From Boseongicola sp. (GTDB lineage Bacteria; Pseudomonadota; Alphaproteobacteria; Rhodobacterales; Rhodobacteraceae), in the NCBI GenBank assembly GCA_028818055.1, contig JAPPOI010000431.1, positions 1 through 63,097 of the forward strand: a DNA stretch of 63,097 nucleotides, read 5' to 3'. Positions 19,591 to 44,492 of the stretch are shown piece after piece. Positions within the stretch are counted from its first letter, which is position 1, and the number at the start of each line of letters is the position of its first letter. The notes under the pieces were generated by a model. It saw nothing but the letters and a program-made list of their open reading frames with translations. It searched no databases and had not been told where the DNA came from. Made by a program: the position numbers and the translations under genes.

Positions 19591-20145
19591 TTAGCGCGGT
19601 GATCGCTTCGCGAGTATGCGTTGTAGTGTCCGGCGATGCATGTTGAGCCGTCGCGCTGTCTCGCTCACGTTGCGGTCACACAACTCATAGACACGTTGAA
19701 TGTGTTCCCAGCGAACTCGGTCGGCACTCATCGGGTTTTCTGGAGGAGGTGGAAGCTCGTCCTCGTCTGCCAGCAGAGCCGCCGTCACATCATTGGCGTC
19801 CGCTGGCTTCGAAAGATAATCAGTCGCGCCGATTTTCACCGCGGCCACAGCAGTCGCGATGGCGCCGTAACCAGTCAACACCACAACACGGCTATCCTGA
19901 CGCTTCTCACGAATGCGTTCGACAACATCCAAACCATTGCCGTCCTCAAGCCGGAGATCCACAACCGCATAGGCTGGCGGACGTACAGTCGCTATTGCCG
20001 TGCCAGCAGCAACGGAATCCGCGGTCTCAACCTCGAATCCACGTTTCTCCATTGCGCGCGCGAGTCGGCGCAAAAATGGCTCGTCATCATCGACGAGTAG
20101 CAGTGATTTATCTGGACCAATTTCTTTCATGGGTCTTTCAGCCAA
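19591..20145 (-). CDS. regA: Redox response regulator RegA/PrrA/ActR
   Basis: Two-domain response regulator of 184 residues. The receiver domain has the acidic pocket VDDDE at 18-22, phospho-acceptor Asp63 (VVDLRLEDGNG) and the VLTGYGAIATAVAAVKIGATD switch region. A PPPP linker (PPPPENPMSADRVRWEHIQR) leads to a Fis-type helix-turn-helix (SETARRLNMHRRTLQRIL). RegA is the global redox regulator of photosynthesis, nitrogen and carbon metabolism and respiration. I start at the TTG at 20145: this gives Asp63, the position known in Rhodobacter RegA, and an N-terminus starting MAE as there. The ATG at 20130 is the alternative. It lies downstream of senC on the same strand, with regB divergent. Confidence 0.95.
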   Translation of the reverse strand: MAERPMKEIGPDKSLLLVDDDEPFLRRLARAMEKRGFEVETADSVAAGTAIATVRPPAYAVVDLRLEDGNGLDVVERIREKRQDSRVVVLTGYGAIATAVAAVKIGATDYLSKPADANDVTAALLADEDELPPPPENPMSADRVRWEHIQRVYELCDRNVSETARRLNMHRRTLQRILAKRSPR

Positions 20146-20204
20146 TTCTGGGCTTTCATTGTTCGATATAGCCTAGGGCGCAGTATACGATGCGTCAAAC
20201 TGCG

Positions 20205-20816
20205 TTACCGGTTTCCAACGTGACAGGCCACTTCCGAAGCCATCTCTTCCGGAGACGCCTCTCGCGCAAAGTAAGTTGTTATCCCAACGTCACCCGGAAA
20301 AGTCAGATAGGTGAAAGTGCTGTGCGACATCAGGTAAAACTCGCCTTCTCCCGATCCCTTTGAATAAAACGCGCGATAGGCTTGGCTAGCGGCCTTCACC
20401 TGTTCTGCGGAACCAGTCAATGCGATCATGTCGGGATGCATATCAACCGCGTACTGGGCCACGATCTCAGGCGTGTCGCGCTCGGGATCGATAGTGATGA
20501 AAAGTGGCGTCACTTCGACGCCCTGTTCTGCCAGAATATCAACCGCTAAGACGTTGCGCGCCACATCAAAAGGGCAGACATCCGGGCAAAAGGTATAGCC
20601 AAAGTAGACGAGTGTGGGTTTCGTTATGACGTCCTTGTCCGTCACGAGCCGCCCTTCCCCATCCAACAACTCAAATGGGCCGCCAATCGAGCCCGGCCCG
20701 CCAGCCACGGCGTTACCTGCGCACACGTGATCTTCCCGGAGAAGCGTCCAAACTGCAGTTCCGCCTATCATCGTGGCCAACACCACGGCAGCCAGTCCGG
20801 CATATAACTTGGTCAT
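20205..20816 (-). CDS. senC: SCO1/SenC/PrrC copper chaperone
   Basis: Membrane-anchored thioredoxin-fold protein of 203 residues. It has an N-terminal anchor at about 5-25, the copper-binding C-x3-C at Cys77 and Cys81 (TFCPDVCP), and the third ligand His165 (LMSHSTFTYL). SCO proteins deliver copper to the CuA site of cytochrome c oxidase or act as thiol reductases; in Rhodobacter, SenC/PrrC is also tied to RegBA signalling. It sits between regB (divergent) and regA (59 bp downstream), the order known from Rhodobacter. Confidence 0.94.
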   Translation of the reverse strand: MTKLYAGLAAVVLATMIGGTAVWTLLREDHVCAGNAVAGGPGSIGGPFELLDGEGRLVTDKDVITKPTLVYFGYTFCPDVCPFDVARNVLAVDILAEQGVEVTPLFITIDPERDTPEIVAQYAVDMHPDMIALTGSAEQVKAASQAYRAFYSKGSGEGEFYLMSHSTFTYLTFPGDVGITTYFAREASPEEMASEVACHVGNR

Positions 20817-20905
20817 TCATCGCCCTCCGGGCATAAATCACCGCATTGATCGTCCAAGCCCAGCCCGAGTACAACGGGACAGCTTGCCCCACCCACGAGT
20901 TTGTG

Positions 20906-22294
20906 ATGGCCAACCAAAACACCTTCGACGCACGTGTACACCGGTCAAACTGGGTACGATTGAGAACTCTGATTGTACTTCGTTGGATTGCGATAACCGG
21001 TCAGCTCATTGCGATCACAATCGCACTTCGCCTGTTTGATCTGGATCTGAATCTCGGGCTTTGCCTGTTGGTGATCGCGGCCTCAATCATTGCCAATCTA
21101 ATCGCGGTTTTCATCTATCCCGAGAACAAGCGATTGACCGAAGCTGAAGTCGCTTGGATGTTGCTTTTCGATATCGTTCAACTTGCGGCGCTTTTAGCGC
21201 TGACTGGCGGGCTGAATAACCCATTTGCTCTACTGATCCTTGCGCCAGTCACGATCTCGGCGACGGCACTTAAGCCTGGCACTACGGCTCTGATTGGCGC
21301 GGCGACGATCGCGCTTGTCAGTGCTGTGACTCTTTGGAATTTGCCACTAACGACGACCAACGGTTTCATCATGGCGATGCCCCGGGACTTCGTCTTGGGC
21401 TTCTGGACGGCCATCGTCATCGGCGTGATTTTCTTGGGGCTCTATGCCAGCCGTGTAACAGGTGAAGTTCACGCCATGTCCGACGCTTTGACAGCCACGC
21501 AGATGGCATTGGCCCGAGAACAGAAACTGACAGACCTCGGAGGTGTGGTCGCGGCTGCGGCGCACGAGCTGGGTACACCCCTAGCGACCATAAAACTGGC
21601 GAGCGCTGAGCTAATCGAAGAGCTGTCAGACCAACCGCAACTGCGGGAGGACGCAGAGCTTATCCGAGATCAGTCAGAACGCTGCCGTGAGATACTGCAA
21701 TCTATGGGTCGCGCCGGAAAAGACGATCTTCATTTGCGCAGGGCGCCGTTGGAGGCGGTTATTCGCGAAGCCGCAGAGCCACATATTGGTCGCGGCAAAG
21801 ACGTTGTCTTCGACATTGACGCCGACGCAAATGCGCGACAGCCGATCATCTTTCGACGACCAGAGATCATTCACGGCCTCAGGAACCTCGTTCAAAATGC
21901 CGTGGACTTCGCACGCTCGACTATCTGGATCGAAGCCACATGGGACGAGGATTTCGTAACGATCCGCATCGTGGATGACGGTTATGGGTTTCCGGCGCAG
22001 GTCATGGGTCGGATCGGGGATCCCTTTGTCCGCCAGCGTCGCTCGGGTACCAGTGGATCTCGCCCCGGCTATGAGGGCATGGGTTTGGGACTTTTCATAG
22101 CCAAGACGCTGTTGGAACGCTCAGGTGCTGAAATCAGCTTCGCAAACGGGAGCGACGGAACCGGGGGCTCGGTAGGTGAAGGCGAGCGATCGGGCGCAAT
22201 AGTGGTTGCAAGCTGGACCATGGGGGCACTGGGGGCCTCACCAGACGCAGACCGCGCCCCACTGGGAGAAAATGTTCCATTTGAGCGGGAGTGA
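20906..22294 (+). CDS. regB: Redox sensor histidine kinase RegB/PrrB
   Basis: Inner-membrane sensor kinase of 462 residues with about six transmembrane helices (about 15-190). It holds the ubiquinone-sensing heptapeptide GGLNNPF (101-107), the phospho-acceptor His220 (AAAHELGTPLATIKLAS) and the redox-active cysteine (Cys260, SERCREIL). The HATPase N, G1 and G2 boxes follow (LRNLVQNAVDFA, DDGYGFP, GMGLGLFIAKTLL). All the residues by which RegB senses redox state are therefore present. The start at 20906 (MANQNTFD) gives the usual N-terminus; the frame is open 20 codons upstream. It is divergent from senC-regA, and the shared 89-bp gap must hold both promoters. Confidence 0.95.
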   Translation: MANQNTFDARVHRSNWVRLRTLIVLRWIAITGQLIAITIALRLFDLDLNLGLCLLVIAASIIANLIAVFIYPENKRLTEAEVAWMLLFDIVQLAALLALTGGLNNPFALLILAPVTISATALKPGTTALIGAATIALVSAVTLWNLPLTTTNGFIMAMPRDFVLGFWTAIVIGVIFLGLYASRVTGEVHAMSDALTATQMALAREQKLTDLGGVVAAAAHELGTPLATIKLASAELIEELSDQPQLREDAELIRDQSERCREILQSMGRAGKDDLHLRRAPLEAVIREAAEPHIGRGKDVVFDIDADANARQPIIFRRPEIIHGLRNLVQNAVDFARSTIWIEATWDEDFVTIRIVDDGYGFPAQVMGRIGDPFVRQRRSGTSGSRPGYEGMGLGLFIAKTLLERSGAEISFANGSDGTGGSVGEGERSGAIVVASWTMGALGASPDADRAPLGENVPFERE

Positions 22295-22324
22295 AGAGGC
22301 AGAAAGCAGATTCAAATCTCCGAA

Positions 22325-22339
22325 TTAACTCCTCATTAA
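22325..22339. promoter_or_regulatory. CtrA box (TTAA-N7-TTAA)
   Basis: TTAA at 22325-22328 and TTAA at 22336-22339 are separated by exactly seven bases, the consensus for the cell-cycle regulator CtrA. The site reads as a tandem repeat, TTAACTCC-TCA-TTAACTCC. It lies 42 bp before the start of the multi-PAS gene and 30 bp after the end of regB. Confidence 0.65.
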
Positions 22340-22381
22340 CTCCAATTTATCAATCCTCAGTTGGATAACGGGGGACTGATA

Positions 22382-23926
22382 GTGTTTTTTTCAGATCCGA
22401 TGACAGCAATTGTCATTTCGGTTGGAGCATCAGGTGGGTTGGTCGCCCTGATGTATCTTGCATTGAAAATCTCAAGGCAAAGAGCCGCACAAAGGCGCTT
22501 TAGAGCCTCGCGGATCAACGATCCGTTGATGTTTCTTATCAACGATGGCGCCGTCGTCGATGCCAATTACAGTGGGCATTTTTACCTTGCCTCATTGGGT
22601 CAAGGGGAGATGCGCGGTCTCAAACAGACTTTGCATGGGCAATTCGATGATGCTGAGAAACTTCTGACCCCCAGCCGTCACGGTCAGATGATCAGAGCGG
22701 TTTCACGAGACGGTGCATTTCAAGCAATCTCGGAAACCGCGCACTCAACTGTACGATTGAAGATCATACCTCAAACAAGCGCATTACCGGGCAAAGAGGA
22801 TGTATTCCGCTTAAATGCGCTGGAAGGCGAACTGGAAACTCTGCGCGCAGCGACCGAAAACGCGCCGTATCTTGTTTGGCGTGAGTCATCATCTGGCGTC
22901 CCGGTCTGGGTCAATCACGCCTATCTCGAAGCCGTCAAAAAGACATTCGGGATTAAGGCGGCCCGCGAATGGCCTTTGCCAAGATTATTTCCCGAGCTCA
23001 GGCGCGGGAACCCGGTTCGTCTTTCGCTCACAGAGCGTGAACATGAAACGACAGAATGGTTCGAATGCCACTCCATTCCTTTGGGACAAGACTCGTTGTT
23101 CACCGCATTCAACGCTAACAGCACGGTCAAGGCCGAAAACCAGTTGCGTGAGTTCATGCAGACGCTCACTCAGACTTTTGCTCAATTGACAATTGGTCTG
23201 GCCATTTTCGACAGATCCCGAAATCTCGCACTGTTCAACCCATCTTTGAACGAGCTTACAAATTTGCCTGTCGATTTCTTGGCGCGTCGGCCTCACTTAT
23301 CGGATTTCTTGGATAAGCTCCGAGAGAAGAAAATGATGCCCGAGCCGCGCGATTATAGAAGCTGGAGGGACTCAATGGCGGAACTTGAAGCTGCCGCCGT
23401 TGACGGATCCTATTCCGAAACCTGGTCTTTGCCCGGCAACTTGACCTATCGTGTGACGGGTAGGCCCCACCCGGACGGGGCAATTGCATTTCTTTTTGAA
23501 GACATCAGTGCCGAGATGACTCTCAATCGCCATTTCCGGCAAGAAGTTGAGATGGGACAAGCTCTGCTGGACAACATGGAAGATGCCACCGCGGTTTTTT
23601 CTTCGTCTGGCGTGTATCTGCAATCGAACAAGGCTTATCGCGACCTTTGGGGTGAAGTTCCTGATGACACGCTCTCGGCAAGTTCTGTCACGGACACCAC
23701 GCGTGTCTGGCACGAAAAAGCGCATCCAACCCCAATTTGGGGCGACCTCCGAGACTTCGTCTTAGATCAAGGCGACCGTGTCGAATGGACGGGCGTTGTT
23801 CAGCTTAGAGATGGTCGCAACCTGGATTGCCGCTTCATACCATTGTCGGGTGGCGGCACTCAGGTGATCTTCCGCTTTGGTGGCGACGCTCCCGTTGAAA
23901 CGAAACGATTGCTCGAAGTGGTCTGA
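22382..23926 (+). CDS. DivL-like multi-PAS signalling protein lacking a kinase domain
   Basis: Protein of 514 residues: an N-terminal transmembrane helix (about 8-28), then four PAS-like regions at about 45-120, 150-255, 275-385 (IFDRSRNLALFNPSLNEL, a PAS_7-type segment) and 400-505 (MEDATAVFSSSGVYLQSNKAYRDLW). It ends right after the last PAS; no dimerisation helix or ATPase box is seen, and tsaE starts 42 bp later. In Caulobacter and rhizobia the gene before tsaE-amgK is, as I recall it, DivL, the tyrosine-bearing pseudokinase that controls CckA and hence CtrA. I infer a DivL orthologue reduced to its sensor half. A perfect CtrA box precedes it. Start GTG 22382 is preceded by GGGGGA; TTG 22361 is possible. 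Confidence 0.7.
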   Translation: MFFSDPMTAIVISVGASGGLVALMYLALKISRQRAAQRRFRASRINDPLMFLINDGAVVDANYSGHFYLASLGQGEMRGLKQTLHGQFDDAEKLLTPSRHGQMIRAVSRDGAFQAISETAHSTVRLKIIPQTSALPGKEDVFRLNALEGELETLRAATENAPYLVWRESSSGVPVWVNHAYLEAVKKTFGIKAAREWPLPRLFPELRRGNPVRLSLTEREHETTEWFECHSIPLGQDSLFTAFNANSTVKAENQLREFMQTLTQTFAQLTIGLAIFDRSRNLALFNPSLNELTNLPVDFLARRPHLSDFLDKLREKKMMPEPRDYRSWRDSMAELEAAAVDGSYSETWSLPGNLTYRVTGRPHPDGAIAFLFEDISAEMTLNRHFRQEVEMGQALLDNMEDATAVFSSSGVYLQSNKAYRDLWGEVPDDTLSASSVTDTTRVWHEKAHPTPIWGDLRDFVLDQGDRVEWTGVVQLRDGRNLDCRFIPLSGGGTQVIFRFGGDAPVETKRLLEVV

Positions 23927-23968: not shown

Positions 23969-24445
23969 ATGAATTCTCGCGCCACCGTCACCTTCGACAT
24001 TTCCCAGCTAGAAGATACGACCAAGTTTGCCGAGCGGTTGGCGACGCGAGTTTCGCCCGGAACATGCATTCTGCTAGAGGGCGATCTCGGGTCCGGAAAA
24101 ACCCATTTCGCGCGCGCGTTGATTCATTCAAAGCTCGACGAGTTGGGGCTTTGGGAAGACGTTCCGTCGCCAACTTTCACCCTGGTCCAAACATATGTCG
24201 CTGGCGATTTGGAAATCTGGCATGCCGATCTTTACCGGCTCCAATCTGTAGATGAGTTGGAGGAGCTCGGGCTTGAAGATGCGTTCGAAAGCGCGGTCAC
24301 GTTAATCGAATGGCCAGACAGGCTCGGCCCACTTGTCCCGGACGACGCCCTTCATCTTCGTTTTGAGCTGAGCGACGACACACGCCGACTTGTTTGCACC
24401 GGTCCGCAACATCTTCTGGATTTGCTCGCGGGTTCGACAAAATGA
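23969..24445 (+). CDS. tsaE: tRNA t6A biosynthesis ATPase TsaE
   Basis: Small P-loop ATPase of 158 residues required with TsaB and TsaD for t6A37 formation in tRNA. Walker A is EGDLGSGKTHFARALI (about 35-50). SPTFTLVQTYVAG is the conserved switch, and IWHADLYRLQSVDELEELGLED and LIEWPDRLGPLVP are typical of the family. It begins an operon in which every gene overlaps the next: its stop overlaps the amgK start (ATGA). It follows the DivL-like gene by 42 bp. Confidence 0.96.
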   Translation: MNSRATVTFDISQLEDTTKFAERLATRVSPGTCILLEGDLGSGKTHFARALIHSKLDELGLWEDVPSPTFTLVQTYVAGDLEIWHADLYRLQSVDELEELGLEDAFESAVTLIEWPDRLGPLVPDDALHLRFELSDDTRRLVCTGPQHLLDLLAGSTK

Positions 24446-44083: not shown

Positions 44084-44492
44084 GATGTGGACATAGCTGG
44101 GGGAAAGTCTGTGCGCCAGACTGTGCGTGATGTCTGCAAAACTTCAGCTTCAACGATCAGGTGGGGGTATGCTTGGACTACAGAAAGTTTTGCCGGGATT
44201 TGTCCACCGTGGACACAGAATTCTGCGTCTATGTGGAGAACCGGTTTGTCAAAATTTCCTCCCCGATTTATCAACAGAGCTTCTCAACGGCGGCACCCAT
44301 TTAAATCATTGATATGTATGGTTTATTGCGGGTTTTCTCACAGATTTGGGGCTTTGAGATTTGATCTATCCTCACGTTGGATAAGTCAGTTAACAGATCT
44401 TTAATCCACGGTATCCCAAGGCCCTACAACACCAACATCTTTTCTTTCTTATATTTATTTTATTAGGAAGGGCTGAGAACAAGGACGGGAAT
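44084..44492. other. Candidate chromosomal origin of replication (oriC)
   Basis: A 409-bp gene-free region between two divergent gene sets. DnaA-box-like sites (consensus TTATCCACA): TTATCAACA at 44268-44276 and TTCTCCACA on the minus strand at 44232-44240 have one mismatch. Two mismatches occur at 44086-44094, 44200-44208, 44376-44384 and 44402-44410. TGTCCAC-C-GTGGACA at 44201-44215 is a back-to-back palindrome. A perfect CtrA box is at 44390. An AT tract (44440-44465, 24 of 26 A or T) could be the unwinding element. parA-parB with parS sites lies 3-8 kb away. Genes on both sides read outward, as expected at an origin. Confidence 0.75.
44390..44404. promoter_or_regulatory. CtrA box (TTAA-N7-TTAA) in the origin region
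   Basis: TTAA (44390-44393), seven bases CAGATCT, TTAA (44401-44404): an exact match to the CtrA consensus. It overlaps a DnaA-like box at 44402-44410. In Caulobacter, CtrA bound at such sites in the origin blocks replication in swarmer cells. A similar role here is inference. Confidence 0.65.

Follow-up and report, generated by a model that had tools for sequence, protein, structure and literature searches.

The most probable reading of the gene at 22382-23926, at roughly 80%, is that Boseongicola sp. encodes an ordinary short DivL of the Rhodobacteraceae, which would act as a sensor or scaffold in a positive loop driven by CtrA. (Coordinates refer to the window, the whole 63,097-nucleotide stretch of Boseongicola DNA that was analyzed. 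divL, its neighbors regB and tsaE, and the elements upstream of divL are all on the forward strand.)

A kinase-less DivL behind a CtrA box is not an oddity of this genome but the normal arrangement in Rhodobacteraceae, and it is already known. Brilli et al. (2010) reported that DivL of the cluster B Rhodobacterales lacks the kinase domain and that DivK is absent; they also described CtrA sites at cckA and divL in Rhodobacterales, which gave a theoretical feedback (PMC2877005). More recently, long and short DivL, the loss of DivK, and the CckA inhibitor Osp were mapped on a tree, and a long degenerate DivL was described in the Oceanicella/Albimonas group (PMC9430884, from 2022). The original prediction, that DivL was trimmed to a sensor or scaffold that cannot bind ATP and is controlled by CtrA in a feedback loop, was essentially right, and its elements (kinase-less DivL, CtrA site, and feedback) had been published for Rhodobacterales in 2010 (PMC2877005).

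We found no material difference between the window protein and the short DivL of other Rhodobacterales (R. capsulatus rcc00042 and D. shibae Dshi_3433), which have the same PAS-only build, no DivK, an upstream CtrA site, and the CckA-ChpT-CtrA relay. The window protein is one more member of this group. What we add is modest. Many more genomes confirm that Rhodobacteraceae have, by default, a PAS-only DivL that is placed behind a CtrA box, the decay of the kinase half is graded, and the PAS-only and remnant forms make up one supported group that is marked by the CtrA box. Living intermediates could be used to test in which order the kinase decayed, DivK was lost, and the promoter was captured.

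Domain structure and identity of the short DivL

With a GTG start at 22382, divL encodes 514 amino acids, and it is present in a single copy in the genome. An AlphaFold2 model, built from an alignment of 38 relatives, has one N-terminal helix, four PAS folds, and long connecting helices (mean pLDDT 86.9). Its pTM is 0.47, so the model can be trusted for the individual folds but not for how they are placed relative to each other. The N-terminal helix (residues 6-43; 22397-22510) comprises a membrane segment and a linker. PAS fold 1 (residues 49-130; 22526-22771) had no match in Pfam, and PAS fold 2 (residues 164-244; 22871-23113) matched PAS_8 weakly. PAS fold 3 (residues 271-374; 23192-23503; PAS_7, 3.4e-12) is the most conserved part of the protein, and PAS fold 4 (residues 402-499; 23585-23878; PAS_4, 1e-4) completes the chain, so Pfam recognizes three of the four regions. 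Across the relatives, residue conservation is strong in PAS 3 and PAS 4. A search of NCBIfam with the protein gave nothing above cut-off, and a sequence search of the PDB with the DivL profile gave no match.

The protein ends just 15 residues past PAS fold 4, and Pfam found neither HisKA nor HATPase_c in it. The four PAS regions behind one membrane helix, the end before any DHp or ATPase motif, and the position of tsaE 42 bp beyond the stop had all been predicted, and all were borne out. Similarly, the 38 aligned relatives have the same PAS families, and none of them has a kinase domain. As judged from its sequence, the short DivL lacks both a domain for ATP binding and the DHp surface, which supports the prediction of a trimmed protein. 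Another polypeptide could in principle supply the kinase half. When we searched the genome with the kinase half of long DivL, we found 14 places that resemble histidine kinases, with identities of up to 36%, and we disfavor this explanation.

Might the gene instead be a decaying or truncated pseudogene, or might an error in the assembly or frame hide a kinase half downstream? A few relatives do have broken copies (G104, G111, G139, and G158). But the frame in the window is open to 23926 with no stop or frameshift, and the residues of PAS 3 and PAS 4 are strongly conserved. Furthermore, the proteins of 80 named relatives have nearly the same end point, and the gap between the stop of divL at 23926 and the start of tsaE (23969-24445; Pfam TsaE, 7.7e-36; conserved neighbor) is 42 bp. 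The shared end point and the short gap exclude a frame error, and we give the pseudogene or error explanation as a whole almost no credence.

We have three kinds of evidence that support the identification of the window protein as an ortholog of DivL, as had been proposed. First, its PAS region is collinear with that of long relatives from other families, which continue into DHp and CA domains. Nearly all of these long relatives have a tyrosine at the phospho-acceptor position (VSY[QE]LRTPLN), which is the hallmark of Caulobacter DivL. Second, several of the long relatives are flanked by tsaE, APH, and AHCY, as in the window, and intermediate forms within Rhodobacteraceae are flanked by regB and tsaE. 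(In the window, regB, a redox sensor kinase and conserved upstream neighbor, is at 20846-22294; NCBIfam NF045988, 2e-222.) The order regA-senC-regB-divL-tsaE-APH-NTP-addB is nearly universal in 80 loci from Rhodobacteraceae. Third, a tree of PAS 3 and PAS 4, described below, supports orthology.

The proximity to regB, senC, and regA in nearly all relatives could also suggest that the protein merely resembles DivL and is a multi-PAS sensor of other origin, which might work with RegB/RegA as a redox partner. The best Foldseek matches to the model would fit this too, as they are other multi-PAS sensors of redox state or oxygen, such as PpsR, FixL, and DosP. However, the collinearity with long forms that bear the tyrosine H-box of DivL, the tsaE/APH/AHCY neighborhood that is common across families, the intermediates between the long and short forms, and the single copy in the genome make an unrelated sensor very improbable.

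Like Caulobacter DivL, the short DivL has a membrane helix and several PAS domains, and it is collinear with the long homologs of Caulobacter DivL, several of which share its gene neighbors. Unlike the short form, DivL of the Caulobacter type has retained its DHp and CA-like domains, with a tyrosine in place of the histidine, and works with DivK. A canonical DivL pseudokinase has a DHp-like domain with this tyrosine and a CA domain; the window protein has neither domain, and no DivK was detected in the genome.

The CtrA box and the start codon

The gap between regB and divL contains an exact match to the CtrA box TTAA-N7-TTAAC (TTAACTCCTCATTAAC, 22325-22340), which is conserved in relatives. 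The start of divL was listed as TTG at 22361, but this is probably wrong. We prefer GTG at 22382 because a Shine-Dalgarno-like GGGGGA (22370-22375) lies 6 bp upstream of it and because the distance from the start of the box to this GTG (57 bp) is like that in the nearest relatives (57-63 bp). The end of the box is then 41-42 bp upstream of the start codon, so the predicted distance of 42 bp, like the exact box itself, holds for this start.

The less specific pattern TTAAN7TTAA is rare: it occurs at 14 sites in the whole 3.37 Mb genome, and 0.29 sites are expected per shuffled window. Given 14 sites per 3.37 Mb, the chance of finding one in the 87 bp between regB and divL is about 4e-4. We also examined 80 named loci from Rhodobacteraceae (each at most 11.5 kb), which were retrieved by protein similarity and not by the box. 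An exact TTAAN7TTAA is present at divL in 78 of these, just upstream of the gene or, in loci whose earliest potential start codon is too far upstream, just before the likely start. It is nearly always the only such site in the locus. In base counts at the relatives' boxes, where the TTAA columns were fixed by the search and the other columns were free, a C follows the second TTAA in 69 of 76 cases, and an A at +29 and a T at +33 are weakly conserved. We predict that CtrA regulates divL in Boseongicola sp.

The arrangement of the box as a tandem TTAACTCC repeat had also been pointed out. The TTAA repeats are conserved, but the extra CTCC match is not, and most of the tandem arrangement simply reflects the fact that every CtrA box is a direct repeat. 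We rejected it as a special element.

The window contains a second TTAAN7TTAA (44390-44405), roughly 100 bp upstream of a hemJ-like gene that is followed by a rho-like gene (both named by eye); a single additional site of this kind could well occur by chance in the window. Other exact CtrA boxes in the genome include ones beside chpT (L178), in the gap between comM and rpoH (L176), and near a LuxR-type gene with an autoinducer-binding domain (L173). These are similar to the CtrA regulon of D. shibae, in which CtrA sites were found at rpoH1 and quorum-sensing genes (PMC4046655).

Spread of the short form and decay of the kinase half

We surveyed one genome from each of 149 genera of Rhodobacteraceae and found a match to divL in 136. 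About 126 of the 136 have the kinase-less form, with a frame that is too short or a C-terminal tail that has no kinase motif. (This count includes a few broken or partial copies.) The other 10 have a long C-terminal part. In G008, G017, and G070, it is DHp-like or degenerate, with no CA according to Pfam (G008 and G017) or by eye (G070). In G004, G099, and G117, it is a DHp domain with histidine; Pfam did not find CA in G004, and its absence from G099 and G117 was judged by eye. In G001, G015, G146, and G162, it is a remnant of the kinase, as assessed by Pfam (G001 and G015) or by a motif search and by eye (G146 and G162). Together with the long forms from other families, these sequences indicate that the decay of the DivL kinase is graded, from DHp plus CA, to DHp only, to an unrecognizable remnant, to none.

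In the three proteins with histidine (L022, L235, and L236 in G004, G099, and G117), ISHRLRTPLN or ISHQMRTPLN replaces the usual tyrosine motif of DivL, and ATP-binding motifs are not recognizable. The DHp domain without CA in these proteins is possibly a phosphotransfer or docking domain. We also noticed that divL is split or has stops in G139 (L220), G158 (L227), G104 (L233), and G111 (L237), and that 13 of the 149 genomes have no match to divL. Some lineages may be able to do without DivL, or those assemblies may be incomplete or erroneous.

In a tree of PAS 3 and PAS 4, with hand-picked rows and a midpoint root, the PAS-only and remnant forms make up one group, separate from the rest, with support of 100/99. 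The CtrA box is present in all 4 remnants and in 14 of the 16 PAS-only rows, and in 0 of the 12 rows from the other group, so among these sequences it marks the PAS-only and remnant group. A CtrA box at divL is not strictly exclusive to the kinase-less forms, though: a long divL from another family (L118 in G031), which is outside the tree, has TTAAN7TTAA 70 bp upstream. Gain of the box elsewhere is possible.

In Caulobacter, DivK binds the DHp surface of DivL. We searched for DivK with a Caulobacter DivK sequence as the query, because NCBIfam has no equivalog for DivK. In the genomes from other families with long DivL, which served as controls, most matches had 73-80% identity, some had 45-61%, and two genomes had none. 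Among the intermediate Rhodobacteraceae, G008, G017, and G070 have matches at 72-79%, and G004 and G117 keep a divergent DivK, with matches at 45-47%. In G001, G015, G099, G146, G162, G063, G003, G007, G010, and G011, we found only background, at up to about 36% identity. DivK was not detected in the Boseongicola assembly, which is 96% complete in 464 contigs; the best match had 32% identity.

The intermediate genera are consistent with two steps. In the first, DHp is kept without CA, DivK is intact, divergent, or undetected (G099), and the box is absent. In the second, only a remnant is left, DivK is not detected, and the box is present. Perhaps DivK was lost, the DHp domain of DivL eroded, and the CtrA box was gained together on one ancestral branch of Rhodobacteraceae, so that control of DivL by DivK gave way to transcriptional control by CtrA, with the ATP-binding half lost or decayed before the DHp half. 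We put this single-branch scenario at slightly below even odds, because the rows were hand-picked, the root is a midpoint root, and the tree gives no branching order among the four remnants.

Partner proteins and the proposed loop

The Boseongicola genome has a gene for CtrA (427 bits, above the cut-off). Genes for CckA and ChpT are present as well, with scores below the NCBIfam cut-offs; these models are named for other orders, and the stretch scanned for CckA was incomplete. The genome also contains an Osp-like gene (C172:2517-2876; L174:1584-1943), which encodes a degenerate receiver of 120 amino acids with D51, the motif FFSDGSIF, and no pair of acids after strand 1. An exact CtrA box lies 83 bp upstream. 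By its length, residues, and promoter, as compared to the published description of R. sphaeroides Osp (PMC9430884), it appears to be an Osp-like inhibitor of CckA. About half of the sampled members of the family have homologs, several of them behind a CtrA box. Osp lacks the conserved lysine at the end of strand 5; the Boseongicola protein has a lysine near this position (AAIVQEKTPP), whereas most homologs have none there.

These components suggest the following scheme. As a sensor or scaffold made up of four PAS domains on a membrane anchor, the reduced DivL would most likely raise the kinase activity of CckA. CckA would feed ChpT and then CtrA, and phosphorylated CtrA would bind the predicted box, which starts 57 bp upstream of the start codon, and raise the transcription of divL. 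The path from CtrA to DivL to CckA and back to CtrA would then be a positive loop, and the Osp-like protein behind its own CtrA box would form a matching negative loop. Papers on relatives are our basis for inferring that CtrA binds the box, that DivL stimulates CckA, and that the loop is positive. In D. shibae, divL has a CtrA site, and its transcript is reduced in ctrA, cckA, and chpT mutants (PMC4046655). In R. capsulatus, divL is down in ctrA knockouts (PMC6363796), and DivL is said to promote the phosphorylation of CtrA via CckA (PMC9143464, citing Westbye 2018). 

Alternatively, the box could be real but CtrA could repress or time divL, or the loop could be negative overall, with Osp as the dominant output. 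R. sphaeroides Osp does inhibit the CckA kinase (PMC9430884), and the Osp-like gene has a CtrA box in Boseongicola and in relatives. But the fall of the divL transcript in ctrA mutants of both R. capsulatus and D. shibae fits activation, so we consider repression or a negative loop unlikely and favor the positive loop. Readthrough from regB may contribute to divL transcription too, in which case the CtrA promoter would not be the only source.

Finally, divL regularly adjoins the redox regulators regA-senC-regB (19591-23926 in the window, with divL), which is a possible reason to seek a redox input to the PAS domains. In R. capsulatus, binding of FnrL next to divL has been suggested.
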